DNA from: Spirogloea muscicola
Taxonomy: Eukaryota; Streptophyta; Zygnematophyceae; Spirogloeales; Spirogloeaceae
Reading direction: 5' to 3'
Assembly: GCA_009602725.1 (NCBI GenBank)
Contig: WELB01000143.1
Coordinates: 159,970-188,443, forward strand
Length of the DNA stretch: 28,474 bases
Made by a program: the position numbers and the translations under genes. Under the pieces are notes generated by a model. That model was not told the DNA's origin, did no database searches, and worked only from the letters and a program-made list of their open reading frames with translations. Positions 5,268-28,474 of this stretch are shown here, one piece after another. Within the stretch, counting starts at the first letter, position 1. The number at the start of each line of letters is the position of its first letter.

Positions 5268-5428
5268 AAAGTGCGCGCCCATAGAGAAGAGGGGCTGGCA
5301 AAGCCAGCCCTAAGAAGAATTGGACAATGTCCAAAGCCAAAGAAAGAGGAGGTGGAAAAATGAAGGGCATTGAGGATAGGGGTAAAATCTTGACGAAAAA
5401 GGACTACACTACTAAACACGAGACGATG
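5268..5428 (-). mobile_element. LINE family B tail, 5'-truncated
   Basis: CGCGCCCATAGAGAAGAGG leads into the perfect hairpin GGGCTGGC-AAA-GCCAGCCC at 5292-5310, then AATTGGACAATGTCCAAAG and AAAGGACTACACTACTAAAC. The same order occurs at 28017-28197 and 7744-7959. The copy stops at GACGATGCAGA, before the terminal codons retained in the other two. An internal block at about 5360-5390 (GGGCATTGAGGATAGGGG) resembles family B2 and may be a small insertion. Confidence 0.8.
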
Positions 5429-5528
5429 CAGAAGAAGTGGCTCGCCCAATGGGGGCAAGGGCTGTGAAAAGAAGTGGCACTCCCAATGGGGGCAAGGGAT
5501 GTGAAAAGAAGAAGTGGCTCTCCCAATG
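5429..5528 (-). repeat. Three head-to-tail partial LINE tails
   Basis: The last ~40 nt of family A occur three times in a row, at about 5429-5470, 5471-5508 and 5509-5528. Each begins AAGTGGC with CCCAATG. The first two break off inside the terminal hairpin at TGTGAAAAG and the third after CCCAATG. Serial, extremely truncated insertions at one site, or slippage, would explain it. Confidence 0.7.
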
Positions 5529-5718
5529 TTATGTAGCCAGCCCGAAAAGAATTGACGAGGTTCGAAAGGGCCAAACTACGAGCTAAGCAGCGACTGTGGG
5601 GCCTGAAGAGGAAGTGGCTCTCCCAATGGGGGCAAGGGCTGAAGAGGCTATGGCAGAACGGGGGAGGATGGACCACTCAGTACTTACGAGTGAGGAGCCT
5701 CACATCCGACAGAAAAAA
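5529..5718 (-). mobile_element. LINE family A copy: 3' UTR plus the last codons
   Basis: In plus view: GCCAGCCCGAAAAGAATTG, GGTTCGAAAGGGCC, GCTAAGCAGCGACTG, then GGGGGAGGATGGACCACT and the reverse complement of a C-terminus ending LLTRKY-stop (about 5679-5715). The start of the tail is lost at TTATGTA. A 28-bp piece of another tail sits inside at 5611-5638. Confidence 0.8.
5611..5638 (-). mobile_element. 28-bp LINE-tail micro-insertion with 8-bp duplication
   Basis: The segment equals the extreme 3' end of family A. CTGAAGAG is duplicated on both sides (5603-5610 and 5639-5646). Paralogous copies near 8068, 9453 and 24887 read straight through CCTGAAGAGGCTATGGCA without the insert, so the empty state is known within this window. 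Confidence 0.8.
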
Positions 5719-5886
5719 AATTTACAAAGGTTCGAAGGGGCCAAATGATGGAGGGGCCTAAAACGCGGTAAGCAGCTACTAAGGGGCCTGAAGATGCTAT
5801 GTCAGAACGGGGGAAGGATGGACCACTCAGTAGTCACGAGTGAGGAGCCTCAAATCCGACAGACTAGCTGCCGGAAAACTACCCCC
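5719..5886 (-). mobile_element. LINE family A copy, 3' half (interrupted)
   Basis: Starts AAAAAAAATTTACAAAGGTTCG, continues with GGGGCCAAATGATGGAGGGG and GATGCTATGTCAGAACGGGG, then the reverse complement of codons ending LLTRDY-stop. It breaks at CCGGAAAACTACCCCC. The same copy resumes at 6119, so a plus-strand element has landed inside it. Confidence 0.8.
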
Positions 5887-6118
5887 CGCGCTCTGGCGGC
5901 GGCCTCCGGCTTCCGTCAGGGCGACGTCTTTCCGCCCGCTAGCTATTCAGATTTGCATCTACTGACTAGAGGTTACTAAGAGTTCGCTGTCTCAGTCCTT
6001 GGCACTCCGGCTCCTTCAGACCTTGTCCATTCCTTTGGGCTGGTGCAAAATTATTCATTTGGAAGCATATTTTTATTCTCTCTCTCCCAGCCACCAGTTA
6101 ATCTGGCCGCGCTTGCTT
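5887..6118 (+). mobile_element. Plus-strand LINE 3' end inserted antisense into a minus-strand copy
   Basis: Positions 5887-5979 encode the LINE C-terminus: RALAAASGFRQG, then SDLHLLTRGY and TAA. The 3' UTR follows (GAGTTCGCTGTCTCAGTCC, CAGACCTTGTCCATTC, GGGCTGG) and ends in AGCCACCAGTTAATCTGGCC and GCGCTTGCTT. The same UTR occurs at 9491-9605. Relative to that copy, about 37 AT-rich bases (6044-6080) are inserted between the arms of the GGCTGG/CCAGCC hairpin. Confidence 0.8.
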
Positions 6119-6282
6119 CCTGACGAAAGCCGGAGGCCGCAGCGAGAGCACGGCCAGCACGCAGATGCAAGGCGTGGGCCATGGACCGCTGAAGGGAGAC
6201 GGACAATCGCATACGGTATACCTGAGCCCACGAGCCAGCGGCGTGAAGTCAGCCGGCTCATCGTGCCTGCGGGACACATGAA
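6119..6282 (-). mobile_element. LINE family A copy, 5' half (interrupted)
   Basis: Continues the copy broken at 5886: CCTGACGAAAGCCGGAGGCC, GCATGGGCC-like blocks, CACGAGCCAGCGGCG and TGCGGGACACA. These correspond on the minus strand to the conserved LINE C-terminal segment RLSVSLQRSMAHALHLRAG. A deletion after GCGGCG shifts the frame relative to the copies at 8283 and 25525. It is truncated at 6282. Confidence 0.8.
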
Positions 6283-6440
6283 TTGACAAAGGTCCGAAGG
6301 GGCCAAATGACGGGGGGGGCCTAAAGCGCTAAGCAGTACGAAAGGGGCCTGAAGATGCTATGTCAGAACTGGGGAGGATGCAGAGGGAAGCTCAGTACCC
6401 GCGAGTGAGCAACATCAAGTCAGAGTAGGTCGCTGCAGGG
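6283..6440 (-). mobile_element. Chimeric LINE 3' end (family A UTR joined to family B terminus)
   Basis: Plus view: AATTGACAAAGGTCCGAAGG, GGGGCCTAAAGCGC and GATGCTATGTCAGAACTGGG are family A. After GGAGGATG the sequence becomes CAGAGGGAAGCTCAGTACCC with GCGAGTGAGCAACATCAAG, the family-B terminus (LLTRGY-stop on the minus strand). The terminal hairpin is missing. Confidence 0.7.
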
Positions 6441-6577
6441 AAAAGCTCATCGAAAGGGGGGCGACGGCTGTGGAGACTAAGCGCATCCCAAGGAAAAATG
6501 TGTATTAAGAGATGGAAGGGCCTGTGTGGCCAAGTACAAAGGGAAGCACATTCACCTGCTGCTCACCTCGCTCAAGG
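6441..6577 (-). mobile_element. Degenerate tail fragments
   Basis: GCTCATCGAAAGGGGGGCGA and CGGCTGTGGAGACTAAG recall a family-A tail. Then GTGTATTAAGAGATGG, GGCCTGTGTGGCC and AAGTACAAAGGGAAGCACAT match the family-C UTR. The decay is too strong for exact borders. Confidence 0.5.
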
Positions 6578-7333
6578 GAATCTCGTGTATTTGAAACAAA
6601 CGTAGGCCAAAAGGCCAAGTACAAAGGCAAGCACATCTAAAGACGTACATAACCTACAGCAGATTGACCCGCTCATTAACCACGGCTCAAAACACTAAGG
6701 TCGCTAATCGAAGCCTGAATACTAGATGTCAGATACGGATCCCTTCTGCCACCAACTAGAGCTCGCCCAGCTTTCTGATGCAAAGCATTAGCCTGAGCAC
6801 GCTGCAAACAGGCCGAAACTCGTCGTCGCAAAAACGACAGATATGCAGCTGGCAAGCCCATCTCAGCCGGAAAAAGATCTGCACGTCGTGTGTAGCTTAA
6901 ATTGGCAATATTATGTAGGAGAGTGTGGAAGCGAGGACCCAGACAGCCAAAGATGTCGACTGCCGCTGGCAGGAGCTGATGGCATCGGGGGTAATCGGAG
7001 TAGTGCTGCAGCTTTCTTTGTTCAGCACCGCCCACTTCGTGGCCAGCGATGTGTGTCGATGCAGGACCTTTATACGCCTCCATAACAACGACATCGCCAA
7101 GGCCCGTGGTCCTCCACCAGGTTGCACGCCCACAATGTCAAGTGTGCGGCGATGATGACGTCCCTGGGCGTCCGTGGTGATAGGCATGATGTCGTTGACT
7201 TCCACGACCGCACGGTCACCGGCGTCGCGCATCAAATCCGCCAGGACGTCGTGGAGGAGGTTGTGGATGCTCACCACTTCTGGTCCAGTGGGGCATCTCA
7301 GCATGTGAGTGGCGAGCTCAGCACCCTCAGCAA
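6578..7333 (-). pseudogene. Divergent LINE (family C) C-terminal remnant
   Basis: Minus strand from 7333: AELATHMLRC and LLHDVLADLMRDAG align with the HILRC and LLRDAM segments of the LINE at 25353. RRTLDIVGVQPGGG corresponds to its RRVDLVASRPGGG (endonuclease-like motif), but the second acidic residue is lost. After a frame change, the last part reads FLRRRVSACLQRAQANALHQ, KAGRAL and SDLSVLSRG-stop (TAA at 6676-6678). The 3' UTR runs to about 6578 and includes GGCCAAAAGGCC and CGTGTATTTGAAAC. The copy is 5'-truncated exactly where a family-B2 tail begins. Only one other class of sequence here matches it, the family-C tails. Confidence 0.8.
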
Positions 7334-7470
7334 AAGGGGAAGAAGGGCTGCCCATTGAGAAAAGGGGCTGGAAAAAGCCAGCCCGAAGAAGAATGAACAA
7401 AGGACGAGAAGGGGCCAGGGGAAGCACTAAGAACAACAAGCACAAGAAGAAACGAAGCAGCTAGGAGGCG
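7334..7470 (-). mobile_element. LINE family B2 tail
   Basis: Matches 28198-28330: AAGAAGGGCTGCCCATTGAG, hairpin GGGCTGG-AAAAAG-CCAGCCC (about 7355-7374), AACAAAGGACGAGAAGGGGC, CAGGGGAAG and AAGAACAACAAGCACA. It ends in GAAGCAGCTAGGAGGCG. No codons remain. Confidence 0.75.
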
Positions 7471-7743
7471 AGGGCTGTGAAAAGTGAGCTCTCCCAAAGC
7501 CAGCCCCAGAATGACAAGAATTTATCCAGCCCCAAGAGCGTGGGAGCGGAGGAGGACTCTTCCAGTAGTTACCAGGACAATTGTAAGGCTAGAATTGGCC
7601 TCCCTTTCAATTTCATGCGCACCGCGCGCCTTCCTCACTGCAGTAGAGGGCTGATGATTTGTGTTTGGTCAGCCCAGAAAAAGAATGTAAAAATGGTCGA
7701 ACGGGCCTGAAAAGGCCTGTTCGAGGGGCCTGGTGCGTAGACG
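7471..7743. other. Degenerate repeat sequence with a 10-bp stem-loop
   Basis: A scrambled tail is visible at 7471-7520 (GGGCTGTGAAAAG, GAGCTCTCCC, AAAGCCAGCCCC). The remainder is unrecognised apart from a stem-loop at about 7697-7722, CGAACGGGCC and GGCCTGTTCG around TGAAAA. No credible gene. Confidence 0.4.
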
Positions 7744-7959
7744 AAAGTGCTCGCCCATAGAGAAGAAAAATTTCGTGTATTTGAAACGAAGAAGAGGGGC
7801 TGGCAAAGCCAGCCCAAAAAGAGTGGACAATGACCAAAGCCAAAGAAAGAGGTGCCGAAAAAGGACCACCTCAAAACAATACAAGACACAAGACGATGCA
7901 GAGGGAAGCTCAGTACCCGCGAGTGAGCAACATCAGGTCGGAGTAGCTCGCTGCAGGTG
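7744..7959 (-). mobile_element. LINE family B copy: tail, UTR and last codons
   Basis: TCGCCCATAGAGAAG, hairpin GGGCTGGC-AAA-GCCAGCCC (7797-7815), GTGGACAATGACC, AAAGCCAAAGAAAGAGG, then minus-strand codons SYSDLMLLTRGY-stop (stop at about 7910). A 24-bp family-C tail end is inserted at 7766-7789. Truncation lies near GCTGCAGGTGGG. Confidence 0.8.
7766..7789 (-). mobile_element. 24-bp family-C tail micro-insertion
   Basis: TCGTGTATTTGAAACGA preceded by AAAAATT is the extreme 3' end of family C. It interrupts CATAGAGAAGAGGGGCTGGC of the family-B tail, with AGAAG repeated on both sides (7761-7765 and 7790-7794). The uninterrupted version is at 5281 and 28033. Confidence 0.7.
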
Positions 7960-7962
7960 GGT

Positions 7963-8436
7963 AGAGGAGAAGTGGCTCTCCCAATGGGGGCAAGGGCTGT
8001 GAGAAGCCAGCCCGAAAAGAATTGACAAGGTTCGAAGGGGCCAAAGTACTAGCTAAGCAGCGACTGCGGGGCCTGAAGAGGCTATGGCAAAACGGGGGAG
8101 GATGGACCACTTAGTAGTTACGAGTGAGGAGCCTCACATCCGACAGACTAGCTGCCGGTAAACTATCCCCGTGACGAAAGCCGGAGGCCGCAGCGAGAGC
8201 ACGTCCAGCACGCAGATGCAAGGCGTGGGCCATGGACCGCTGGAGGGAGACGGACAAGCGCATACGATATACCTGAGCCCACGAGCCAGCGGCGTTGAAG
8301 TCAGCCGGCTCACCGCGCCTGCGGGACACAGCGCGCCGTGCAAGCCTGGCCAACAGGTCGAGCCAGTGGGATCCGAGAGCCCCATGCACGTCCACAGCCA
8401 GGGGGACGAACTCGTCGGCAGCCGGGTGGTCGGCAA
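7963..8436 (-). pseudogene. LINE family A copy retaining about 107 C-terminal codons
   Basis: Tail and hairpin at 7968-8015, UTR to 8110, then an open minus-strand stretch from 8431 to the stop at 8111: HPAADEFVPLAVDVHGALG, LLARLARRAVSRRRGEPADF, YRMRLSVSLQRSMAHALHLR, SDVRLLTRNY. It is nearly identical to the C-terminus at 25353-25675 and needs no frameshift, so the insertion is recent. The 5' truncation is at about 8436, directly against the next tail. Confidence 0.85.
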
Positions 8437-8735
8437 GAGAAGGCTCGCCCATAGAAAAAAAGGGGCTAGCAAAGCCAGCCCAGAAAAGATTGGACAATGT
8501 CCGCAGGCCTCAGGGGCCACAAAACAGTGCCCGGAAAGACAAAAACTACACACCAAGACACGAAATGATGCAGATGGATGCTCAGTAGCCATGAGTGAGC
8601 AACAGCAAGTCAAAACTAACTCGAAGCAGGAACAGCGGGAGTCTGTCGAGACCCTGAGGCAGCAGCCCTAGCCCGGCCAGCGCGCGTGTGGAATGATGCA
8701 TGGGCCAAAGAGCGCTGGAGCGAGGGCCGGGAAAA
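8437..8735 (-). pseudogene. Divergent family-B LINE 3' end
   Basis: GGCTCGCCCATAG, hairpin GGGCTAGC-AAA-GCCAGCCC (8463-8481, one mismatch), ATTGGACAATGTCCGC, then minus-strand codons ending VSFDLLLLTHGY-stop (about 8582). Upstream, SSALWPMHHSTRALAGLG can be aligned loosely to SMAHALHLRAGRALAAASG of the main LINE. The 5' limit is unclear. Confidence 0.6.
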
Positions 8736-8789
8736 AGGTTCTCTCCAGTCGATGGTGATTGGTTAGCCCATGAAAAGACTGCACAAAGG

Positions 8790-9166
8790 GTGGCCGGGAA
8801 GGATCCCCGGAGTTGCGGGCGCACGAGCGCGGGGGCGCTTTCCGGCAGGTGGAAGCCGGGCCGGGGCCGCCTGCCGGCTCTGGGGCGGGCGTGGCCGGGC
8901 CGGCACGCCCCACCCGCTGCACGCGGCGGCGGCGGCCGCCCGCCATCAATGCTGGCCCCACGCCGGCGGGCCACTTTTCCTGGCGCCCTATGGGGTTGGC
9001 CCTTTTCCGCCCTGTTCGTTCCTTTATCTGGGCTATCCAATAAATTGCCCACTGCTGAGATGAGTCTTCCTTTCTGTCTTTCTCCTGGCCCCCTTCTCGT
9101 ACTTTGTTCATACTTTTTTGGGGCTGGCTTTCCAGCCCCTATCCTCAATGGGCGAGCCCTTCCTCC
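8790..9166 (+). mobile_element. GC-rich segment with a plus-oriented B2 tail (possible SINE-like unit)
   Basis: A GC-rich block (8800-8960) is followed by ordinary sequence and then the plus-strand tail: GGCCCCCTTCTCGTACTTTG, perfect hairpin GGGGCTGG-CTTT-CCAGCCCC (9120-9139), CTATCCTCAATGGGCGAGCC. No reverse transcriptase codons precede the tail, unlike the minus-strand copies. It could be a non-autonomous element borrowing the LINE tail or a tail inserted next to an unrelated GC-rich sequence. Confidence 0.5.
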
Positions 9167-9212
9167 TTTGTTCCTCGCAGGGCCGCGCTCCGCCGCCGGC
9201 ACATCTCCACAT

Positions 9213-9490
9213 CGAGAGAAGGGCTCGCCCATTGAGGAGAGGACCACATCTCTCTTCTCCGTGGGCTGGCTTTTGTCGTTTCATTCCGGGCTGGCTGTTC
9301 ACAGCCCTTGCCCCCTTTCGCAGAGCCACTTCTTTCTTTCAGAGGAAGAAGTGGCTCTCCCAATGGGGGCAAGGGCTGTGAGAAGCCAGCCCGAAAAGAA
9401 TTGACAAGGTTCGAAGGGGCCAAAGTACGAGCTAAGCAGCGACTGTGGGGCCTGAAGAGGCTATGGCAGAACGGGGGAGGATGGACCGCT
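9213..9490. mobile_element. Tail-to-tail LINE family A ends
   Basis: 9213-9240 is a minus-oriented tail start (AGAAGGGCTCGCCCATTGAG). 9262-9343 is a plus-oriented tail (GGGCTG-GCTGTTCA-CAGCCC at 9288-9307, CTTGCCCCC, AGAGCCACTTCTT). 9345-9490 is a minus-oriented tail and UTR (hairpin 9373-9392). The plus and minus 3' ends abut, so AGAGCCACTTCTT and AAGAAGTGGCTCT form an inverted repeat around 9324-9357. Confidence 0.8.
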
Positions 9491-9605
9491 TACTGAGAGT
9501 TCGCTTACTGCTGTCTCAGTCCTTAGCACTCCGACTCCTTCAGACCTTGTCCATTCTTTTGGGCTGGCCTCTCCCAGCCACCAGTTAATCTGGCCGCGCT
9601 TGCTC
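9491..9605 (+). mobile_element. Plus-strand LINE 3' UTR
   Basis: TTACTGAGAGTTCGCTTACT, TCTCAGTCCTTAGCACTCC, CAGACCTTGTCCATTC, hairpin GGCTGG-CCTCTC-CCAGCC, then ACCAGTTAATCTGGCCGCGC. It is the uninterrupted counterpart of 5977-6118. It begins right after GGATGGACCGC of the minus copy, so it was probably inserted there. Confidence 0.75.
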
Positions 9606-9800
9606 TTTAGTAGGGGGTCGAGGGCTGTGGAAATGTCCTGAAGGAGTCAGGTCCGCATTCCTTGGTCAGCAGCCGGATTCTGTAGCATCCAGAGAGAAAT
9701 GGCACTTTCCAATGTAAGACAGCGGGAGAGAAACGGCATTTTCAATGTAGAAACGGCTGTGAGAGGCCAGCCCAGAAAGAGATGAACAAGGCGTACCCCT
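9606..9800 (-). mobile_element. Degenerate tails, including two tandem terminal fragments
   Basis: AGAGAAATGGCACTTTCCAA (about 9690-9716) and AGAGAAACGGCATTTTCAAT (about 9726-9752) are two successive decayed tail ends. The second continues into GGCTGTGAGAGGCCAGCCCA and AAGAGATGAACAAGG. This is the last LINE debris before the bHLH gene. Confidence 0.6.
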
Positions 9801-10319
9801 ACCCATCTTTCCGTTTCCCCGCCCGAGCATTGGTCTGGCTGGCTCGCCCCCCCCCACAGATCGTGCGCGCTCCGTGGAAGAAAGACCGCTCCGTGGACCC
9901 CCGCCCCGCGGCCGCGGCCCCGCCCGCCCGACCACGCCGCCGCCACCGCCATCGGCGCCGCGGGCCGCCTATGCCCCCCCCCCCATGGCTGTGGCTGCGC
10001 TGATGGAGTTATGAACACCCATCTGCACCTGCTGGCTTCCACAGCCGCTCGTCTAACACCAGGGGCCGCATTCTTCGTCACGGCCGCAGGCGGCCCCCCG
10101 GCCCCCCCGGCGCTCGCGACCCCTCTCTGTGGCTCCCAATGCCTGACCGCAGCCGCCTCCCCCTACCTTCCCCCCGCTAGCCCGCCGCCGCCGCCGGCGT
10201 CGGCCGCTCCCGTTTCCCATCCAGGGCCCCACGACGAGGAGGCAGCGCCGCTCTCTGCGGCCCGCGAATGTCCTCCCCGCCCCTCCGGCCGGCGGCGCTC
10301 CCGTCGCCAGGCCGCCCGC
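9801..10319. other. GC-rich 5' region of the bHLH gene
   Basis: Strongly GC-rich and proline/alanine-coding in several frames. An ATG at 10011 is open to 10439 through the candidate ATG at 10320, so part may be coding. The composition resembles the GC-rich 5' ends of the other genes here, so promoter and 5' UTR are the simpler reading. Confidence 0.4.
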
Positions 10320-12794
10320 ATGGCTGTGAAGGCCCACAGCTGCCAGCAGCCCCGACCCGCGCCCTCACGCTGGCAAGCCGCGGAACTGCTGGAAGGCCAC
10401 AGCCTCCAGGGCGGCCTGCACGCGCCGTTCGACTTTCAGGTAGACGGTTGCTGCCATCATCACTCATGCCCGCCTGCTCGCCCGCCAATGTCAGAACCTC
10501 GCGCTCGAAGAAGCCTCCTTCGTGCCCTTGCGGCAGGCTGATTGATGTCTTGGAACAGCTCCATTGGCGTGACGGCCTATGCTCCGGGCCTGCCCTTGAC
10601 AATCTGGACGCAATGAACGGACTCGGACGCACTTCAGCACCATTCGCGCTCGACCACCCTGACGGCACAAACTTCCAGGTAGTGGCCTTGTAATTGCCCG
10701 TTGACCTGCTGCCTGCTGCGAGAATGGCTAAACTGCTACCCCTATCTATCAAGTGTCAGCAGGCCCCACACTCTTGACCCCTTGAAGCAGAAGTTGGGCA
10801 CAACCACAAATCAAGCGCCTATCTCTCCGGAGGCTGACTGTTTACCATGCTGTTTCTGGCCCCATGTGCAGCTTGCTGCCCTCATCCAAGCTCTGTCACG
10901 ACAGGAGGCCCTCCCAGACTGGGCCACTTTGCCAGACCCATTGTCAAGCTTCCGCGATCTTCCCACCTTGGCAGAGCCACAGCAAGTGCACGAGACAACT
11001 GGCCACATTCAGCATGTCATGGCGCAGGTCCCCCCTATGACACCTGCAGCACCGCCCAACTTGGCAAACTCCTGCTCGCTTGCCCTCCCTTCGGCATCAC
11101 CCCCTGATGTGTGGGGCCACACAGCCATGGCAAGCATGGCAACAAACCCATGCAAGGTTGTACAGGTGTCTGGTAGTACTTGCTTAGAGGACCCCATGCC
11201 GCGGATGGAGCAGGAGGCGGCAAGGAAACTCTTGAGTGAACAACTCGATCAGCTATACAAGCCATTTTACTCCCCGCATAGCCAGCCAACTGTACCACAG
11301 GGAGCCATCCCAGCCCACGAGACGTTGCCCGTTGTGGTCCCCAGTGGCTGCGGGTCTGCTGACCATGTCGAGGAGAAGCCACAGGTTCTTGCCCCATCAC
11401 AGCAGAAAGCTGGCAAGCCCAATCCTCCTCCGAGAAATGCTTGGTCCGCTGAGCTACGGAAGGCCATTGCTGCTGCCTCTCCCAGCAAGGGAGCCTTGTC
11501 TGACAAGAAGCGCGAGCCAAGAGTGGCGGGGGGGTGGAGTGACTACAGCGGTGCCTGCTTCACAGCTGGATATCAGCAGCTTCCAGCAAAGCACATCGTG
11601 GAAGTCTTGCTCGAACACAGGGCGTCCAGTGATCAGACTTCTGCAGCAACTAAATTGCCCTTCGATGTGGCCCAAAGCCTCGCCACCAATGGTGGGTCAC
11701 TCGAGAGCTCAAGCGGCCACAAGCACTGCAGACAGGCTGGTGGTCCGGGAAGCACCTGGACCGACACTCTTGAAGATAAGCGGGCAAGGCACGACGTGGG
11801 CCAGCAGATGCACGATGCTCTCCTCCAAGAGCCACTGGCATGTATGGACGAGGATGCAAGCAAGGCTCCCCTGTACCGCAGGGAGAAGGAGAAGCGGCGG
11901 ACACTCACTGAAAAGCGGAGGAGGGAGCGGATCAGTGAGAGCCTGAAAGCATTGCAGGTACAGTGCTGTAACTCGATATAGCAGCTAGCCGTTTTCCACT
12001 GTCGTGGACCTCAAATAGTTTAGGTTGTGCAACCTGCAGAGGGCATGCTAGGCGGATGGAAATCCACCACGCAATGTGTGGGGAACGTGGTCATGGAATG
12101 GACCTCTGCTGTAATTTAGTGTGCTTAGGTGTGCTTTTAGTAAGGACTCTGGGTCCACGGGTGTGTTACAATTCCCTGGTGCTGGCTATCTGCATATTGA
12201 CTGCTTCTGCCAACAGTCTGTGACTGCTTGCTGCTTGGGCTACTTGTGCGCAGAAAGTGACTCCTCAGCCAACAAGCCACAGGGAAGACACTGCTACTAT
12301 GCTGGAGCGTGCGCGTGAGTACATGCTCTTTCTGGAGAGCCAGGTCCAGGTGGGTTATTTGTGGCGATGTCTAGCGATCTTCAGCTTGACCGTGTGATCA
12401 CATATCCTCTGGCTGGTGGAACATGCCTGGAATGTGCCTGAAGTCAAGAGAAGGGTACTATCATCAAGGGGAACAGGCACTCTGTTACACCTGCTTCCTC
12501 AACTCACAGCACTTCTGAAGTGCTCCATGTGCAGGCTTTGAGCTCGTCTAGCGACCGGAGTTGCCAAGCTAAGCAGCGAGAGCACCTTCTTTTCGCGAGA
12601 AAGCTTACAAAACAGAATGGTAAGGGAGGTACAAGGATGCATGAGTGAGCTAGATTCTATCCAGCTTCTGTCTAGCTCTAGCGCCGGATGTTAAGGTGGA
12701 CAAGCTGGTGAAGTGCAAGCAGCTGTTAGGTGGGACGCCTGAGCTTAGCATCTTCTATTTGCCACTTTGCTTGGTGAGGCGATTTTGGTTGTAG
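10320..12794 (+). CDS. Basic helix-loop-helix (bHLH) transcription factor
   Basis: The supported 3' part is exon 10872-11957 (362 codons), exon 12254-12349, exon 12535-12619 and exon 12682-12794 ending in TAG. The long exon is Ser/Pro/Ala/Gln-rich. It ends in KRRTLTEKRRRERISESLKA plus LQ, which is the basic region and helix 1. The next exon supplies the loop and helix 2, TATMLERAREYMLFLESQVQ, in phase. Conserved Glu9, Arg12 and Arg13 predict E-box DNA binding; the His usual at position 5 in G-box binders is Arg here. It presumably acts in the nucleus as a dimer. Upstream exons are likely near 10320-10439 (MAVKAHSCQQ to HAPFDFQ) and ending at 10678 (NGLGRTSAPFALDHPDGTNF), but their junction phases do not agree, so the start is unresolved. 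An alternative acceptor at 10791 is possible. The last two exons follow splice consensus and frame only. Confidence 0.82.
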
Positions 12795-12801
12795 ATAAGT
12801 C

Positions 12802-12806
12802 TGTAA
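12802..12806 (+). promoter_or_regulatory. Possible polyadenylation signal TGTAA
   Basis: TGTAA lies 8 nt after the proposed bHLH stop. That would give a very short 3' UTR, so either this is coincidence or the gene has a further 3' exon. Confidence 0.25.
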
Positions 12807-13728
12807 CATGTTCAAAGGATGTCCGTCTCTTCAATTTGCGCGCGGTCGTGCATGCCGGCAGTGGCAGCACTAGTCGGCCTCCCCGATGGCCTCTGCAGCC
12901 GTTCTGCCGTACTATGTCCAGCTCTGTAGCCTAGCAGTCGGAGCTGCTTGTGATCCTCATGCGAGCTAGAAGTGCTGTAGCATGCCCGCATCGCAGCCAT
13001 CGGGCTCAGAGTCCGTGCATTTGGGGCTGCAGCAACCCGAGGTGCGGGGACCTGGAGGCCCCGCTAGAATTGAAAGTAGCTGAGATATTGCTGATCTCTG
13101 GCTGGAGAACGACTCTGGTACGTGGACAATCGAAGTGACGCACCCAAGCTAGGCTAAGAAAAAGAGAATTTCTGATCATGTGCAGTGCTTTTTCTCGAAC
13201 TTAGTTCATTGCTTTTCCGGGGGTCTGCCGATCACATCCATCGCCCTCTCCGGGAAGAGTCTCCCCGCTGCGATACCCAAAGCTCCGCGCCCGCCCGGCT
13301 GACGCAGACGGCCGTGGACCCACCCCGGCAAGTGGGGCACGGCAGCAGGCGCCGGCCAGCGGGCCCCCGGGCGCCGGCCACCGCCTGTCGCGGTGCGCCG
13401 ACGGCACGTGGCCAGAGCGGACAGCCCCACGTGCACGCACATGCGTGGCCCCAGTAGTCCCATGTGCAACACTCGTGGGCGACCCAGGCCCAACATTATA
13501 GGGGCGGCGCGCCTTGTCAGCCCTCCGCTTAGTCAACGCTTCGCGGGCGGCACCGGCACTGCCAACGATCTCGCCACTCTAGCCATTAAGTCCGGGCTCG
13601 ACCCGCCGTATCTCCACGGCCCCGCAATTGCCGCGATACTCCGAGATCCGACCCCCGCAGCTCGGAGCGGCTCTTCCGATCCTCAGGATCCGGTCGTCGC
13701 CGTGGGCACTGCTGCCCACCGCCAACGC
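12807..13728. other. Unrecognised region
   Basis: A segment bounded by a good acceptor and donor (13033-13117; one frame reads NPRCGDLEAPLELKVAEILL) could be an exon, but no joining partner was found in phase. 13240-13420 is GC-rich. No protein family was recognised on either strand. Confidence 0.35.
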
Positions 13729-20356: not shown

Positions 20357-20420
20357 GGCCACGAGGCACTCTAATCCCTGTTGAGCAAGGAAGTAAGCTC
20401 TTTCCAAGGCATGCGACTAC

Positions 20421-20463
20421 CGCCCTGGCCTGACCAGTCACAGCCTCTGCTCCTGTGCTGGGA
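20421..20463 (+). repeat. 43-bp direct repeat, copy 1
   Basis: CGCCCTGGCCTGACCAGTCA followed by CAGCCTCTGCTCCTGTG. The second copy at 20765-20804 differs by a 3-nt deletion and a few end bases. The two lie either side of the plus tail at 20602-20690. Confidence 0.75.
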
Positions 20464-20601
20464 GAGAGCTTCTCCTCCTCATCGTAGCAGCCCCCACCCT
20501 TAGCATTGCTTCCTTCTCCGGCGACTGCTCGGCCTCTTTCCATAGCAAGCTCCCACATACCTCCCAAGCCACACTATGTGCTGAGTGGTTTGCAACTACT
20601 G

Positions 20602-20690
20602 TTGGGGCTTCAACTTGCGACTTTGTCCACGGCTTTGGGCTGGCCTGTCACAGCCATCGCCCTTTCTGCAAAGAGCCTTCCTCAGGCTGG
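20602..20690 (+). mobile_element. Decayed plus-oriented LINE tail
   Basis: TTGGGGCTTCAACTTGCGAC, TTTGTCCACGGCTTT, GGGCTGGCCTGTCACAGCC (imperfect terminal hairpin), ATCGCCCTTTCTGCAAAGAG. A further small hairpin AGGCTG-GCCATCAA-CAGCCT follows at about 20693-20713. Confidence 0.6.
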
Positions 20691-20764
20691 CCATCAACAG
20701 CCTTTGATGGCGTGGTGGAGCCACTGCGTACATCTTGTTGGCCTCGTCCTACGGTTGTAATTAT

Positions 20765-20804
20765 CGCCCTGGCCTGACCAGTCAGCCTCTGCTCCTGTGA
20801 TGGG
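20765..20804 (+). repeat. 43-bp direct repeat, copy 2
   Basis: CGCCCTGGCCTGACCAGTCA followed by GCCTCTGCTCCTGTG; see copy 1 at 20421-20463. Spacing between copies is about 344 bp. Confidence 0.75.
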
Positions 20805-21544
20805 GCCTTTCTACTTGGACAGTTTCGGCCTGCCCACTTCATGTTTGCATCGATTGCTGCTGACACACGCCTCTTTTGATGGAGCTGTGAAATCCTGCTA
20901 TTACAGTCATGTGCGGCCTTCTCAAGATGATTGCTAAAGCCACTGCTAACACAAGAGCAGGCAAGGTGCAAATTCTTCAAGCTTTTCTTCAGTGTTAGGT
21001 GATCCATCGTGACGCACTTGTGACTGGAGAAAGGGAGGCCCGGCCGTTACCAGAATCTGTCATTGATAGTGATAGCACAGCACTTTATTTGCTATTAAGC
21101 AGCAGCGTGGCTGCATTTCGTTTAGTGCTCCTGCTCCACAATACTGGCAAAAGCGACCCTAAAGGAGCTGCTGTCAAGCTCAAGTCAGTGCTAGGAGCAT
21201 GGAAACTTATGAGCTGCTCCGGGCATGATGTCAACAACAAAGTAGGTATCAACCCCCAAGAATGAAGAATGCACAAAGAACGCACACTAGTGCCTAACTC
21301 CAAGGCTTACTGCCTGACTGGCCCTTGACCTGTACAGCTGCAAGAGTAGGGTAGTACTCGCAGCCCACTACTAAAAGTAGCAACAAGAGAGAAGCCAGAA
21401 GAACAGGTTCTTCACACGACACACCTGCTCATGTTCCATGGGAGCACCCCTGACAAGAAGTGGCTCTGCCTGGTGCGACCGATCAGTCATGCTGGAGGGC
21501 AACCACAAATCTGCACTCTGTCAGCCTGCACATGCAGGCAAATG
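20805..21544. other. Spacer downstream of the lipase gene
   Basis: Unremarkable sequence; part should be the 3' UTR of the minus-strand lipase. An open plus-strand stretch at 20999-21265 has no recognisable domain and no neighbouring exon. Confidence 0.4.
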
Positions 21545-24021
21545 CTAGCTGTCGACGTGGAAGCCATTCTTCACAGCACGGGGGTCAACCTCCTTGACCG
21601 CCTCAGTAACGATGCTGGTGGCTCCATCAAGGAGGCCCGAGCTGCGTTGGTCCAGCCAGGTGAGCAGATCTGTGAGAACCCTCTCCACCACGTCGTCCGG
21701 CTCGCCCTCTGTGAGGGCATGCCAGCTGTCCTTGTACAAATGCATGGTCTTGTCCTTGCTGCATGCCTGCTCATACAGCGCCTGGCTGATGGACGGGTCT
21801 GTCACAGTGTCGGCTCCTCCATGGAGGATGAGCATTGGAATGTTTACCTGCCACGCCAGGAGCCAGGTATTGCCACCGGATAGTCATAGCAGTGAAGTGT
21901 GTTCAACACGTAGCAGGCCACTTTCTCCAGCATAGACAGGCGCAGTCCTGCGCAGCTTACCTCGGGAAGGTGCTCCTCAATGTCCTGCGTAGCTTTCAGC
22001 ATCTCGAGAGCCGTCCTCAACCTTGGCTTTCCCTTGTAAGCAGTGGGGTTTTCACGGGCCTGCCAGGACAAGGTAAGCACTGATACTGCGTAAACAGTTG
22101 TGACAAGCGGGGACCACGAAAAATGCAACAGCTGCACCTGACTATATCATCTTCAGGCAGACAGTACGAATACAAGAAGTGTCAGCCGGTCCTCATAATG
22201 AAAGTGTCAAAAGGTCACTCAGAATACATGCAGCTACCTTCTGGCGCTTGTCAAGCTCACGAAATGCGAAGTCGCAGATGTCGTGCGTGGGAACCGCCTT
22301 CAGCATGGGGAAAAGCCTTGCTAGGGCTTTCAATATCACAATCATCAGTGGTGGCGGCATCATCTCATCCGATATCTGCACAGGTTTTTGAGCTTTCGTT
22401 ACTTCGAATTGGCCTTGCATGGCACAGCAGATCTTGCAAGTTGTTTGAAGAGATCTCCTCCACGCACGTGCTAGCCCTGGCTAGCTTAGTCTGGCTTGGC
22501 ACTGACCTTGCACATTGGTGCCAGGAAGATGGCGCCCCCCCACGCCTGGGACTGGCGCAAGCAGACCTTGAGAGCAACGGCACCACCCATCGACTCTCCA
22601 TAAATGAATGCTGGGAGCCCATGGAACTCCTTCTTACCTGCGAAATGACAGAATGACCCCAAAGAGCGGTTGTTGTATTGTCTTTGGGCTACTACTATAC
22701 GTGTCCCAATCATGACTTGCAATAATCCTGTGGGGTACTGAGAATGTACTCTTGATGCAGTCAAGCTGCTTGATATCCCTCAGGTAATTTCATGCTAGCC
22801 TCCCATAGCTTCAAGTCTACTGCAAATGCGTGCCAGGGGCATGGTTATACCTTTGACCTGGTCGCAGTACTCAACGACGTCATCAACAATCGTATCAAAG
22901 CGCGGAATGTAGCAATGCAATCCAGCTGATTGCCCGTGCCCTTCATAGTCCATGCCAAAAACACCGTAATTTGCCTGCGCCAACTTGATCGCTACGTCTG
23001 CACGAACCACACAAGAAGGCTTGTGGGACTGTGTCCTGCACTTGGCACGATGTCGCCCTTCACAGGCACTGCATTGACAGCTGCTGATTGGAAGAGCACG
23101 TTGCCCTCATGTCCCCGACAACAAGATGTTCCATTTACCAGATAATTTGGACAAGCGGGCACATAAAGAAGCAGGTTGCCTGCCAGCTCGTGACAGCATC
23201 CGGAGCGGCTACTTTTAGGATCACCAGTGCTATCCTGTTTTACTACAGGGCCACAGCTGATCAGGACCTTCCCAAAAGAAGGCACACGTGTCGCCATAGC
23301 CATGGCAGTAGAAGACCAGTCCCTTGAGCTCAATGCTGCTTTGAGGGAACCACCGCTTGGTGAATATCTCCACGCCCCTCGAGTTCACAATAAACTCCTG
23401 CCAGTTTAAACATGCCTGCTCAGAGTGAGGGTCCCAGCAGGCCCATGAATCTGACCGGCTCAGAACAGCAACACGCTACGACGATTTTCATACGTTCAGC
23501 AGAGCAGAGCAGCAGAGCAGCCTCTGGCAGTCAAGAGTTCCTGGTCAAGCAACGGGCACAATAAGTGCAGCTGGTGCCAGGAGGTGGAATGGGAGGAAGA
23601 AACTATGCCGCACCTCATCCGATTTGACTCCCAGCCCCTCCTGTTTGGGTGCGCCCAGCAACAGGCACAGAAGCACAGCCCACAAGTCAAATGCCGGGAC
23701 TGGAGAGTTCAAAATGCGCCTAGGGACGCGAGTGACCGCCGCTGGATGATTAGATCAACCAGCCTGAATCAGCAGTACCCGAGCCTAAGCAGGGCAGCCT
23801 GCATTGCTAAACGGATCGACGGTTGCAGCAATCACGACAGGAACCGCCAGCTGGCTCAGGGATGTTACATAGAAGCTGTCCGGCTTCTTGAAGTGCTGCC
23901 GGATCTTTCGGCGCGCGTTCTCCCAGTCCAGCGACCTGGCGTCGGGCCGGCCGTTGAGCAGCCAGTACAGGAGGATAGCACCCAGGAGGACGGCAGCGAG
24001 GATGGTCCACGGGGCCTCCAT
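21545..24021 (-). CDS. Membrane-anchored alpha/beta hydrolase, plant monoacylglycerol lipase type, seven exons
   Basis: Exons in transcript order are 24021-23869, 23397-23268, 22997-22851, 22637-22507, 22375-22238, 22059-21961 and 21847-21545: 1101 nt, 366 aa, all phases agree, stop TAG. An N-terminal hydrophobic segment (WTILAAVLLGAILLYWLL, residues 5-22) suggests a membrane anchor. Then come EFIVNSRGVEIFTKRWFP, GLVFYCHGYGDT (oxyanion region), YGVFGMDYEGHGQSAGL, the nucleophile elbow YGESMGGAVALK (Ser in G-x-S-x-G), IFLAPMCK, a lid-like stretch with PTHDICDFAFRE, and the acid and base residues in LILHGGADTVTDPSIS and SWHALTEGEPDD. Plant relatives hydrolyse monoacylglycerol or lysophospholipid, or act as caffeoylshikimate esterase. 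Membrane lipid turnover is the likelier role in an alga; the substrate is inferred. The start is the ATG directly before the hydrophobic segment. Confidence 0.95.
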
Positions 24022-24748
24022 GCGGCTCTGGCTGTGGCCTGTGCCGGCGGCGAGGATGTCCTTCCGCCCGCCCGACCAGCCGCCGCCGCAGCCGCCACCG
24101 ACGGGTCGAGGGCCTGCCCGAGTTGCGCGAGCGCGGCCCAGTGACGGCCGCCGCTGCAGCAGCAGGGTTCGCCTCTTAGAGCGGACGCGGCGCTGAGAAG
24201 GCCCTCGGCGGAGCTCTCTGGAGCCGCTGCCGCTAATCACCGCGCGGCACTGCACCGGCTCCGTGCGCCGCGCAGCCTCTCTCCGTCGCGGCCGGGAGCC
24301 CCGCAGCGGCGCCGCTGGCCGGAGTTCCTTGCCAATTCTACGTGGGCCGCGCCGGTCCTGTCGGACGGTGAGGCTCACGGGACCGCCGGCGGCTGCGGCG
24401 GCTGCGGCGGCGGCGGCGGTGGCGGCGGCGGCGGTTGCGGCGGCGCGGTGGCGGGCGACGGGGGCAAAGAGAATGATGATGGTGGAGAGCTGGCTGCGCA
24501 AGCGCCGCGGCGTCGCCGCCCGTCCAACCCTCATCCTCATCAGCCTCCCCCTCCTCCCTTCCTACCCTCATGAAATTTTCCCTCCTCAGGCCACTCAGGC
24601 CCTCTATCAGGAAACTACCATCTAAGTCAATATCACTCCACCTCCTCTTGCAGTTGTCATGGTGAATATTATCCTGCTTTTAGGGGCTTCCGGCTCTTGC
24701 AGACCGGCTACTCAAAGACTAGTCTCTCTAGCATGCGGCCGCTCAACA
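24022..24748 (-). promoter_or_regulatory. GC-rich 5' flank of the lipase gene
   Basis: From the lipase ATG to about 24470 the sequence is very GC-rich, with a GGC-type trinucleotide run at 24386-24450, and probably contains 5' UTR and promoter. 24560-24748 is AT-richer and holds no gene. No core-promoter motif could be assigned with confidence. Confidence 0.4.
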
Positions 24749-24784
24749 GAAAGACGCTTCCATGAGAGGGCGGTGGCTGAGAGA
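24749..24784. repeat. Target-site duplication, left copy (36 bp)
   Basis: Identical to 25059-25094, base for base. It lies immediately before the 3' end of the insertion at 24785. Confidence 0.85.
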
Positions 24785-25058
24785 AGAAGTGGCTCTCCCA
24801 ATGGGGGCAAGGGCTGTGAGAAGCCAGCCCGAAAAGAATTGACAAGGTTCGAAGGAGCCAACTACGAGCTAAGCAGCGACTAAGGGGCCTGAAGAGGCTA
24901 TGGCAGAAAGGGGGAGGATGGACCACTCAGTACTTACGAGTGAGGAGCCTCAAATCCGACAGACTAGCTGCTGGAAAACTATCCCCCTGACGAAAGCCGG
25001 AGGCCGCAGCGAGAGCACGGCCAGCACGCAGATGCAAAGCGTGGGCCATGGACAGAAG
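24785..25058 (-). mobile_element. LINE family A insertion flanked by a 36-bp duplication
   Basis: The copy has the tail (AGAAGTGGCTCTCCC), hairpin, UTR and about 40 C-terminal codons (SMAHALHLRAG-like to LLTRKY-stop at about 24937 on the minus strand), truncated after GGGCCATGGAC. Identical 36-bp stretches at 24749-24784 and 25059-25094 (both containing AAGACGCTTCCATGAGAGGG) flank it. Removing one flank plus the insert restores a continuous older tail, so this is a clean truncated insertion into another LINE copy. Confidence 0.85.
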
Positions 25059-25190
25059 GAAAGACGCTTCCATGAGAGGGCGGTGGCTGAGAGAGGCCAG
25101 CCCAGAAAAAGGAATTAACAAAGTCCGAAGGGGCCAGCCACCAGTTAATCTGGCCGCGCTTGCTGCCAAAAGAAGAAGTGGCGCTTCCAC
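25059..25190 (-). mobile_element. Older LINE tail (host of the insertion)
   Basis: The first 36 bp (25059-25094) are the right target duplication. Then GAGAGGCCAGCCCAG, AAAAGGAATTAACAAAGTCC and GAAGGGGCCAGCCACCAGTT. ATCTGGCCGCGCTTGCT also occurs at the ends of the plus-strand UTRs at 6119 and 9605. It ends in AGAAGAAGTGGCGCTTCC and a spacer before the next tail. Confidence 0.7.
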
Positions 25191-27930
25191 TGGCAAGAAG
25201 AAGAAGTGGCACTCCCAAAGGGCTGTGAAAAGCCAGCCCGAAAAGAATTGACAAAGGTTTGAAGGGGCCAAATGATGGAGGGGCCTAAAAAGCGGTAAGC
25301 AGCTACGAAGGGGCTTGAAGATGCTATGTCAGAACGGGGGAGGATGGACCACTCAGTAGTTACGAGTGAGGAGCCTCAAATCCGACAGACTAGCTGCCGG
25401 AAACCTTTCCCCCTGACGAAAGCCGGAGGCCGCAGCGAGAGCACGGCCGGCACGCAGATGCAAGGCATGGGCCATGGACCGCCGAAGGGAGACGGACAGT
25501 CGCATGCGATAAACCTGAGCCCACGAGCCAGCGGCGTTGAAGTCAGCCGGCTCACCGCGCCTGCGGGACACAGCGCGCCGCGCAAGCCTGGCCAGCAGGT
25601 CGAGCCACTGGGACCCGAGAGCCCCGTGCACGTCCTCGGCCAGGGGTACGAACTCATCTGCAGCCGGGTGGTTGGCGTGTTTGGCCGGCTTGCTGCGAGC
25701 GGCCTTCGCCGCAGCATGGCCAGCCTGCGAGGCAGAGAGCCCCCGGTTGGAGCGGTCGACCACATCAGTGGTGACCACATCAGCGATGATGCGCGCGCCG
25801 CCGCCCGGCCTGGACGCCACCAGGTCGACGCGGCGCGTGTGGAGTCCGTCGGCCCTCCGGAGGATGGGCATGACCGACGTATTCTCCATGGCCACCGTGT
25901 ATCCGCCCTCCTGGGTGATGCCGAACATTGCATCTCGGAGGAGGTCGTGAGCAGCTGTACGTCCGCCTCCAGTGGCGCAGCGGAGGATATGCGCCGCCAG
26001 CTCCGCCGGCTTCGTCGACCGCTCCCCACACTTACACTGCAGCACGCCAAGCAGACAGGGCGGGGGGAGACCCAACAGGCAATGAGTGGCCGTACGGAAG
26101 AGTTCATCCGGCATCCTGAGGGCGTCGTACGGGGGGAGCGCGCAGAGCCAGGCTGCCGCGCCAGGGGAGGCGGCCGACAGCAGCCGAGCATGGCCTCGCA
26201 CGTCTGTGGGAGGGAGGAGCTGCAGCGTGGCCGTGAAGGACGCCTTGTCGACTGCCGCCATGTACCACACCTGCGCTTGCGAGTCGGTGGAGTGGGCAAG
26301 GTGGGCAAACGGGACCACGCTCTTTGCGAGGGCAGGGTGCTCCGCAAGTAACTCGTCTCGAGCTGAGCGGAGCGCCACCTGAAAAGGCAACGAGCCGGTC
26401 GCCACCTCCGCCACAGCCTGCTGCAGCATGGGCCGCTCATCATGGAGAAAGCGCTTTGCCACCGACGTGGCGACCTGAGCCCAACTGCCGAGGAACGCTA
26501 GCCTGCAGATGAGCGAGCGGCAGCCGAGGCCGCCATGGCCGGGGGGCAGAGCGGCCTGGTGCACCGCAGCGGCCGAGTCGAGGAAGCCCGGGTGACGGAT
26601 GAGGGCCGCCACGCTCTCCATGACGCCCGCGTGAACTTGGTGTAGGCCTCCAGCACCTCGGGGCAGGGAGGGGTCGTCTGCGCCAGGTAGTGGGGACGCT
26701 GCACAATGCATTTGGTGAGCATAGCAAGCGCCAGCTGCATATCCTGCAGCTCGGGGAGGCGGGCCACCGGCTGGAGGTGCTCCAGGAGCCAGTCGCGCAG
26801 TTGCCCGTCGACGAAAGACGGCGTGCCGAATGGGACCCCCAGGATGGTGAGGTCGCCTGGGGGAGGCTGGCACCCGGGCGGCAGGGGCAAGGGGGCAGGG
26901 AGGCCACGCGGGGACCACGCGATGCACTTCTCGGGCCGGATGGATATGCCGAGGGCGGCCAGCTGCTGCTGGAAGGTGGCGGTGGCTGCTGACACACCCC
27001 CTGGGCTGCCGACCAGTGTGGTGGTGTCGGCATAGGACGGCAGGAGGACGCCGGGTGCGCTGCCACAGTGGCCTTGAGAGCGCGGTTGTGAGCCAGCGCA
27101 AAGAAGAACCCTGCCAGAGGATCCCCCTAGCGTGTGCCCGTCCTCGCCTGCAGCGTCTCCACCTCGCCACTCCCTGTCAGCCAGAGAAGGTCGCTGGGCT
27201 GGCTGTAACCAAGGCGGAAGAAGGGAAGGAGGGAAGGGAAGGTCGCTTGCAGCTCCTTGGCGATGGCGCTGCTCTCTGCGCTGTTGAAGGCGTTTTGGAC
27301 ATCGACAGCCAGGACCATCCAGTCAGGGTGGAGATCCAGGTCCGCGCGGACGCCGTGGACGATAGCCTCCCCGCTGCTGCGTAGCCCAGCGCCGTATTGA
27401 TGTGGGGCAAGGTGGGTCTGCGCCTGCCCGAGATGTTGCTGCCACAGCGTGCGGGTCGCCAGCCGGTACAGAACCTCGCCGATGGCGATGGGGCGGACTC
27501 CGCCATTGGCCTTGGCGATGGCGAGGAGGTTGCTGGAGCGGAGCACCGAGCGGGTAGCAGCAGGGACCTTGTCCTGGGCCACGAGCTGACAGACTTGGAG
27601 CAGCGCCTGGAAGTCGGAGGCCTCGCCCTCCAGGAACAGCTCACGGATGTGCTCCGTGAGCATGCCAGAGGGGCCGCCTGCTGCTGCTCTGCGGCTGCTC
27701 TGGAGTACCCGGCGGACGGTTGCGGCGTCGAGGGCCACCGCCTCTGGTGGCTCGAAGGAAGGCAGCCAGGAAAATTTGTGGAAGCGGCTGCTGATATCAA
27801 AAGGGGGGGGGAGGGGCACGGGCTTCGGGATGGAGGGCGTTCAGGGCACGTCTGGTTGTCGAGGTCGGTGGAGCCAGCGAAGAGTCCTCAAGTGCTTCCT
27901 TTCCCAGTGCTTGCAAAGACCGGCGCGCGA
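25191..27930 (-). pseudogene. Non-LTR retrotransposon (LINE) with reverse transcriptase and restriction-like endonuclease motif, inactivated
   Basis: Minus strand. An N-terminal part (27930-27810; LQALGKEALEDSSLAPPT) leads to a C9 run where the frame changes. The reverse transcriptase follows: RRAAAGGPSGMLTEHI, LLAIAKANGGVRPIAIGEVL, motif A LAVDVQNAFNS, motif B with TAG in place of the usual Gln before GDPLAGFFFALAHNRALK (stop at 27127-27129). After a further frame change, motif C is YADT instead of YADD, and motif D is ISIRPEKC. Another frameshift lies near 26635. From there to the stop at 25353 one frame is open: LPPGHGGLGCRSLICRLAFL, the zinc-binding CKCGERSTKPAELAAHILRC, then RRVDLVASRPGGGARIIAD (D-x14-D, as in R2/CRE-type endonucleases) and the conserved C-terminus ending LLTRNY. 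The 3' UTR and hairpin tail run to 25191. The copy cannot make an active enzyme. The 5' boundary, near a stop and a hairpin at 27933-27950, is inferred. Confidence 0.93.
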
Positions 27931-27932
27931 GT

Positions 27933-27950
27933 GAGTGAGCTTATGCTCAC
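27933..27950. repeat. Small perfect hairpin at the LINE 5' boundary
   Basis: AGTGAGC-TTAT-GCTCACT, a 7-bp stem. It lies where the open LINE frame ends upstream and may be part of the insertion site or chance. Confidence 0.4.
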
Positions 27951-28016
27951 TGGACCCCCTTCGTGTAGACTGAAAGAATGCAAGACACACGCCCCTGCTG
28001 GGGCCCGAGGGGGCCG

Positions 28017-28197
28017 AGATAAGTGCGCACCCATAGAGAAGAGGGGCTGGCAAAGCCAGCCCAAAAAAAGAATGGACAATGTCCAAAGCCAAAGAAAGAG
28101 GAGCCGGAGAAAGGACTACACTACAAAACACTGCAGAACACAGAACGATGCAGAGGGAAGCTCAGTACCCACGAGTGAGCAACATCAGGTCTGAGTA
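28017..28197 (-). mobile_element. LINE family B copy: tail, UTR and last codons
   Basis: CACCCATAGAGAAGAGG, perfect hairpin GGGCTGGC-AAA-GCCAGCCC (28044-28062), AATGGACAATGTCCAAAG, GGACTACACTACAAAACAC, then minus-strand SDLMLLTRGY-like codons with the stop at about 28161. It is the cleanest family-B copy and is truncated at 28197, where the next tail begins. Confidence 0.85.
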
Positions 28198-28474
28198 GAG
28201 AGAAGGGCTCGCCCATTGAGGATAGGGGCTGGAAAAGCCAGCCCAGAAAAGAATGTACAAAGGACGAGAAGGGACCAGGGGAAGTACGAAGAACAACAAG
28301 CACAGAGAAGAAGCGAAGCAGCTACGAAGCACTCAGTAACCCCTGCTAAGCAGCCTCAGGTCAGAGAGACTGGGTTCCTGGAAGCGGGTCCCCTGGCCAG
28401 AGCCAGAGGCAGCAGCGAGGGCTCTGCCTGCACGCAGGTGCAGCGCGCGGGCCATAGACCTCTGCAGCGAGACG
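28198..28474 (-). mobile_element. LINE family B2 copy running off the window, C-terminus open
   Basis: 3' tail: AGAAGGGCTCGCCCATTGAG, hairpin GGGCTGG-AAAAG-CCAGCCC (28226-28244), CAAAGGACGAGAAGGGACC. The stop TGA is at 28333-28335. From 28474 to the stop the minus strand reads without interruption VSLQRSMARALHLRAG, RALAAASGSGQG and SDLRLLSRGY, an excellent match to the C-terminus of the LINE at 25353. The rest lies beyond the window. Confidence 0.85.

Follow-up and report, generated by a model that had tools for sequence, protein, structure and literature searches.

LINE retrotransposons of the alga Spirogloea muscicola carry at their 3' ends a compact tail of about 60 nt, built around a hairpin with a nearly constant stem and a changing loop. 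This shared LINE tail is real and of a known kind, and its host is probably a group of LINEs with a restriction-like endonuclease (RLE). Most likely, by analogy with known systems, the hairpin tail is a tag by which the LINE enzyme finds its own RNA. The window studied here is the whole stretch of DNA analysed, 28,474 nt of contig WELB01000143.1 (positions 159,970 to 188,443 of assembly GCA_009602725.1), and most of its LINE pieces are on the minus strand. In coding-strand orientation, the tails of four lineages, designated A to D, follow one order: TTGTNMATTC, a T run, the hairpin GGGCTGG-loop-CCAGCCC or a shorter form of it, about 28 nt, and a pyrimidine tract. The stem core, GGCTG/CAGCC, is near-identical across all four lineages, and the variable parts of the hairpin are its loop, the stem length, the outermost pair and one-sided G-U changes. 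In the copies compared, loops vary in both length and sequence and both arms are retained.

Three forms of the hairpin had been put forward for this window in an original prediction, and all three are present where it had placed them, far above the level of shuffled sequence. The first pattern has 11 matches in the window at up to three mismatches (chance mean 0.00 in shuffles), the second has 8 (chance mean 0.08), each palindromic place being counted once per strand, and the third has a single match at 9120-9139 (chance mean 0.01). The hairpins of that prediction hold good but their strand does not: its families A and B are antisense readings of lineages A and C, and only the copy at 9120 is in sense, as a lineage B tail. 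Similarly, the GGACAATG block that had been placed after the hairpin is CATTGTCC in the RNA and lies 5' of the hairpin. Rfam and tRNA scans of the window gave no match. The features of the window are as follows.

3290-3309, minus strand: lineage A hairpin
5292-5310, minus strand: lineage C hairpin
6581-6630, minus strand: F-clade tail with CCTTTGTAC, hairpin GGCC-TTTT-GGCC (6605-6616) and AATACACGA
6676-7137, minus strand: LINE ORF of the sister clade F, which lacks the GGGCTG hairpin; its C-terminal part is present
7365-7384, minus strand: lineage B hairpin, GGGCTGG-CTTTTT-CCAGCCC on that strand, found by the first pattern and missed by the tail map of the window
7797-7815, minus strand: lineage C hairpin
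7994-8013, minus strand: lineage A hairpin
8463-8481, minus strand: lineage C hairpin in the GCTAGCC form, a one-sided G-U change; the form recurs genome-wide in the B/C list
9120-9139, plus strand: lineage B hairpin, plus-strand copy, the third form of the original prediction
9373-9392, minus strand: lineage A hairpin
9562-9579, plus strand: lineage D hairpin core, plus-strand copy
24811-24830, minus strand: lineage A hairpin of a 5'-truncated copy
25220-25239, minus strand: lineage A hairpin, 3' end of the element with ORF 25353-27176
25353-27176, minus strand: part of the LINE ORF of a lineage A element, with RT end, CCHC-like motif and probable restriction-like endonuclease region
27127-27840, minus strand: RT region further upstream in that element, in a different frame, a weak RVT_1 match (E 1.5e-4, below the curated cut-off)
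28020-28079, minus strand: lineage C tail with upstream block TTGTCCATTC, hairpin 28044-28062, ATGGGTGCGC block and tail end (from pattern match and sequence)
28226-28244, minus strand: lineage B hairpin, GGGCTGG-CTTTT-CCAGCCC on that strand, by pattern match

Positions 3575-4678 of the window are taken up by GC-rich tandem repeats, whose periods are about 103, 113, 134 and 88 bases. On the plus strand, 10683-11981 holds a 432-aa open frame with no Pfam match at E 0.001, the end of which we take to be a bHLH-like stretch.

The 153-Mb assembly has 68 exon matches to chlorophyll a/b-binding proteins, one of which matches solved proteins of that kind, in keeping with a photosynthetic and probably green-algal host. 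Across this assembly, GGGCTGGCNNNNCAGCCC occurs at 86 forward and 76 reverse places, palindromic ones being counted twice, and its reversed control at none. Tail patterns in which the hairpin was left free match exactly at 1,265 places for lineage A, 1,758 for B/C and 2,097 for D, each with 0 matches of the reversed-pattern control; readings of individual rows for these patterns and that of clade F refer to the first 100 places listed, from the first contigs. Moreover, of 100 RT-anchored 3' ends, selected from matches of the window ORF and a lineage D query that reached the ORF end or nearly so, 87 have the hairpin together with the tail end. The other 13 ends are mostly broken, inverted or mixed among those inspected, and two of them (L004 and L036) retain an intact hairpin. 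Between lineages, the tails of 15 representatives are 0.61 identical (range 0.41-0.79), compared with 0.32 for the preceding 80 nt and 0.21 for shuffled tails, the A3 representative having been trimmed about 15 nt early. These identities, together with the 87 ends, bear out the earlier proposal that one tail with its hairpin is common to LINE families with diverged 3' UTRs. Additionally, for 7 of 20 sampled copies the LINE sequence seen by BLAST, with a small library that may miss old UTRs, reaches just 7-41 nt beyond the hairpin on its upstream side. None of the 20 sampled tails was recognised as belonging to a SINE or another non-autonomous partner. Two pairs of loci share upstream sequence, one with an F-clade tail, judged by eye, and the other L119/L131, over 63 nt. 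In viral contigs, a loose hairpin pattern matched six contigs and no relative was confirmed by protein.

The window ORF at 25353-27176 (minus strand) gave at least 76 matches as a query (72 of 19,084 candidates scored), and the lineage D query gave 101. Over approximately the last 411 aa, lineages A-D are mutually 62-68% identical, and the next clade, F, is 39-42% identical to them. Three frames, read from stop to stop over 1350-1521 aa, each have one or two zinc-finger-like motifs and an F/YADD RT; Pfam RVT_1 matches these full frames at E 8e-16, 1e-14 and 1e-16, and Pfam zinc-finger families match below their cut-offs only. Long open frames of lineage B or C include those of L061 and, at 1433 aa, of the L143 locus. 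The combination that marks the R2 group, a single ORF with N-terminal zinc finger(s) and RT, is present, and the best PDB matches are R2 proteins, over the RT region only (E 4e-11, ahead of L1 at 2e-4). All eight C-terminal parts contain RR-x1/2-D..DVV and seven of the eight a K..(Y/H)..D.P stretch, which may be PD-(D/E)XK-like endonuclease motifs. Furthermore, C-x-C-x11/12-H-x3-C follows the RT in 8 of 8 C-terminal parts, with a spacing unlike that of the CCHC knuckle, CX2-3CX7-8HX4C, described after the RT of RLE LINEs in PMC5678591. The predicted fold of the window protein by itself is uninformative (pLDDT 37.8). Judging from sequence, with the endonuclease assigned by motifs, the A-D elements are probably restriction-like-endonuclease LINEs of the R2 group in the wide sense. 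Membership in the L1 clade of plants and green algae is not supported, given the absence of an APE endonuclease domain (no Pfam match in the three full frames) and R2 scoring before L1. R2 proper is not supported either, as judged from the flanks, which vary by locus and consist of pyrimidine tracts and other LINE pieces. LINE pieces occur in the flanks of 73 of the 87 loci, three of them self matches (L041, L045, L100) that were removed before the stacking count. Among other RT families, equal-scoring 1237-aa frames stand at several places and are apparently young.

It is reasonably probable that the last 60 or so bases form a 3' recognition tail for target-primed reverse transcription. In the RNA, a hairpin with the near-constant core GGCUG/CAGCC and a lineage-specific loop would stand between UUGUNMAUUC and a 3' part ending in pyrimidines. 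The single-ORF protein, with its zinc-finger-like motifs, R2-like RT and probable RLE, would recognise its template by binding the hairpin and so hold the tail. Subsequently, the nicked target strand would prime cDNA synthesis from the UUC-rich end of the RNA. The TTC tract at the end of each new copy would then serve as the next target, and head-to-tail stacks would arise in this way.

The stem itself was assessed in an alignment for which 82 of the 100 ends were anchored, 63 of them distinct and 50 aligned; the 18 unanchored ends include many good A tails, so that form A1 is under-represented. Interrupted or rearranged ends, some with intact hairpins, were left out (L004, L033, L034, L036, L047, L091, L096, L112), as were ends with N runs (L076, L077) and those similar to kept rows (L010, L013, L110). 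Among the 50 distinct tails, no compensatory change was found in the hairpin, with 0 of 7 pairs and 0 of 350 cells changed on both sides. Pairing is present in 90.0% of the hairpin cells and in 90.5% when the 3' letters are shuffled among sequences, as expected because the arms are constant; sliding the partners by 1 to 3 columns leaves 38.7-66.6% paired. The outer pair is non-standard in 17 of the 50 tails and the seventh pair fails in 16. The original prediction had offered stem-preserving changes as its proof, and the covariation test did not produce them. Its description of differing loops between arms that keep pairing survives for the loops and not for changes that keep the stem, the core being near-constant. 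With so little variation in the stem, paired changes in this genome are unable to demonstrate that the stem is what counts.

One-sided changes were also tabulated, from lists drawn without requiring the arms; for B/C, 4 of the 100 listed rows have no recognisable arms and 62 are distinct, and for D, 1 of 66 distinct rows was skipped. Among the places listed, the five core pairs of B/C show 23 changes that keep pairing versus 9 that break it (62 distinct rows), although many of the 23 are inherited, the independent events numbering about three. In the listed B/C rows, the recurrent core variants GGGTTGG (23 rows), CTAGCCC (6) and CTGGCCC (2) all pair, being G-U on the RNA strand where the other strand would have A-C mismatches. 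The recurrent outer-pair variants CCAGCCA (9) and TGGCTGG (8) break pairing. In the lists for A and D, core changes at the places listed keep pairing in 4 and 8 cases and break it in 8 and 11, respectively. Two models of a small second stem were considered, one pairing columns 43-45 with 52-54 (97.3% paired, 13 both-sided cells, 0 of 500 shuffles as high) and an alternative pairing columns 40-43 with 50-53 (80.7% paired). Neither is claimed, because few lineage-level events are involved and the two models exclude each other and are incompatible with an enclosing helix.

This enclosing helix belongs to the predicted folding of the tail, in which RNAalifold recovers the hairpin core from the 50 tails. 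Tails of B/C are predicted to be more stable than shuffles in 7 of 7 representatives (z -2.4 to -4.8), and those of A and D are not clearly above shuffles (z 0.0 to -1.1). The antisense fold is nearly as good in B (z -2.1 to -3.0) and mostly so in C (z -2.6, -0.7, -3.1 and -2.6). In B/C, the predicted partner of the upstream block is the ATGGGCGA block on the far side of the hairpin, which the two would thereby enclose, with a mean pairing probability of 0.69-0.95. According to this model, the block that had first been described as separate may form one strand of an outer helix in these two lineages. For the hairpin core, form A1 has a predicted probability of 0.32 and D one of 0.44-0.53. Covariation is absent from the enclosing helix, which is kept only partly in D and in A only after a shift; displaced by one pair, it could form at 7 of 8 positions of the most frequent A form. 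By prediction, the 3' part folds differently among the lineages, with the enclosing helix in B and C and local small stems in A and D.

The sister clade F is abundant, with at least 150 matches and many equal-scoring copies (12,501 candidates) and 1,050 exact tails genome-wide. Its tails are without GGGCTG, yet they have a different hairpin of their own, GGCC-loop-GGCC, which follows CCTTTGTAC at a place similar to that of the A-D hairpin. Among the 100 rows listed, the F loops are of several lengths and a few rows have a changed arm. The 3' flanks of six near-identical F-clade copies are pyrimidine-rich. Equally young and abundant copies without the hairpin, which the original prediction had named as the observation that would count against it, were not seen within B/C. 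The search at short spacing revealed no hairpin-less family: at most 24 nt separate the two blocks at 47 places, in many forms of which none occurs more than three times, compared with 1,758 places at longer spacing by a pattern that is not quite alike. Some tails do miss the hairpin or one arm, namely L048 and those 47 places. In L048 (C337:18004) and at C8:152893, the cut fuses CATTC to AATGGG at what would be the inner edge of the enclosing helix, and looks as if the enzyme had skipped the stem.

The same tail could act as a linear signal, for recognition or for formation of the transcript 3' end, with the hairpin as a by-product of the GGGCTGG...CCAGCCC motif. Such a signal would explain the conservation about equally well, as the stem core hardly varies, TTGTNMATTC is approximately as conserved as the stem in the aligned tails, and the folds of A and D are weak. 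We nevertheless consider it unlikely: a conserved motif need not be an inverted repeat, both arms stay in place while loops change length and sequence, the recurrent core variants still pair in the RNA, and a different hairpin occupies a comparable position in clade F. The structure is likely to be a selected feature.

Stacking of copies bears on the insertion step of the proposed recognition tail. New copies tend to adjoin older tails, downstream and in the same orientation. At 39 of 84 loci, a same-strand LINE piece begins no more than 40 nt past the tail; at 9 of the 84, such pieces begin there on the opposite strand alone. At the 48 loci with 500 nt of flank, the same-strand starts per 50-nt bin number 17, then 9, 5, 3, 6, 3, 0, 3, 5 and 2, and the opposite-strand starts 9, then 9, 6, 2, 6, 8, 4, 4, 5 and 4; the later bins of the same flanks served as the control. 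Behind the tail core, about 7-9 positions are mostly pyrimidine, fewer and more weakly so in D. The stacking is consistent with new copies entering the TTC tracts of older tails, and by itself is no proof of an endonuclease preference. Lineage A tail ends closely trailed by a second tail end were also observed (window 5430-5528; 63 places). In 59 of the 63 places the second end is without the 5' arm, its start falling within the hairpin loop or close to it (TTCTCACAGCCC), a region of sequence common to the loop and the TTC tail; the pattern permitted at most 30 nt between the ends, which favours armless second ends. Their sequence suggests that these double ends may be slippage or very short insertions.

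The close succession of tails and LINE pieces would also suit a tail passed between families by template switching or gene conversion among stacked copies, without selection. Mixed tails do occur: a D-type hairpin is joined to a B- or C-type 3' part in at least 3 of the 100 B/C rows (C3:546237, C7:88276, C3:1460330), and L033, L091 and L112 are mixed too. Nonetheless, exchange of this kind is improbable as the source of the shared tail, since loop and 3' part are both specific to the lineage in the 50 aligned RT-anchored tails and the conserved stretch begins at the same block in all four lineages. At C3:1023028-1023080, a lineage C tail has the loop AAA for TTT, as if the hairpin were inverted. 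It is very improbable that the inverted repeat acts as DNA, for example as a cruciform or a mark of the insertion target, for although new copies adjoin tails, the neighbouring pieces at the loci examined begin after the pyrimidine tract and not in the hairpin, and the recurrent variants form RNA pairs but DNA mismatches.

Several known elements resemble those of S. muscicola in part. Utopia elements insert in U2 snRNA genes, and Zepp copies nest within one another. Utopia is alike in having N-terminal zinc fingers, RT, a C-terminal zinc finger and RLE, and RLE elements often target repeats and microsatellites according to the same source (PMC4640811), whereas the present elements seem to target the TTC tract of LINE tails. 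The green-algal Zepp LINEs of Chlorella and Coccomyxa likewise cluster together as reported in PMC11005252, but they are listed there as LINE/L1 and have a poly(A) end according to PMC3747384, in contrast to the pyrimidine-tract ends seen here. R2 shares the single ORF, the N-terminal zinc-finger-like motifs and the RT type, and the account in PMC12180492 describes a structured RNA at the very 3' end, with a 3' terminus able to pair with the primer. In the bird R2 protein described there, 68-98 nt of 3'-terminal RNA serve as the template end and are contacted by a zinc finger (PMC12180492). R2 resides in 28S rDNA, whereas the present copies lie in pyrimidine tracts behind other copies; moreover, that account gives bird and turtle R2 a pseudoknot-hinge-stem and silk-moth R2 a longer UTR (PMC12180492), unlike the simple hairpin within about 60 nt found here.

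LINE tails with a 3' stem-loop recognised by the reverse transcriptase are known from accounts in PMC3747384 and PMC4176376. In the monocot L1 lineage and the maize and sorghum SINEs described by Ohshima (PMC3747384), the last 45-50 nt are similarly conserved, the rest is diverged and a putative hairpin is present. The stem described there varies with compensatory mutations and the loop and flank are constant (PMC3747384), whereas in the present tails the loop changes and the stem stays constant; those elements are also of the L1 clade, in contrast to the R2-like look of the present ones. For zebrafish ZfL2-1/ZfL2-2 and eel UnaL2, PMC4176376 describes a stem that is recognised in general and a loop that is recognised by the cognate protein. 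By analogy, recognition of the L2 type would fit the constant stem and lineage-specific loops seen here, although those elements belong to the L2 clade and have other proteins. No description of this tail was found in the open-access literature on conserved LINE 3' hairpins, Repbase being outside this scope. To our knowledge, no compact shared hairpin of this sort has been described in an RLE-type LINE group.

Few systems are known that reveal how a LINE enzyme distinguishes its own RNA from others. The tail of about 60 nt differs by small, countable steps among the four lineages and the sister clade, several of which have long open frames, so that swaps of protein lineage, stem and loop would be straightforward. 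Additionally, short 3' tags are useful for RNA-templated insertion tools. It is possible, and offered only tentatively, that this one genome holds a graded lock-and-key series of RLE-type tails, in which A-D have a common stem core with differing loops and 3' folding and F has a different hairpin. If so, the stem would serve for the clade and the loop for the lineage, and several enzymes could thereby coexist while using each other's TTC tails as targets.
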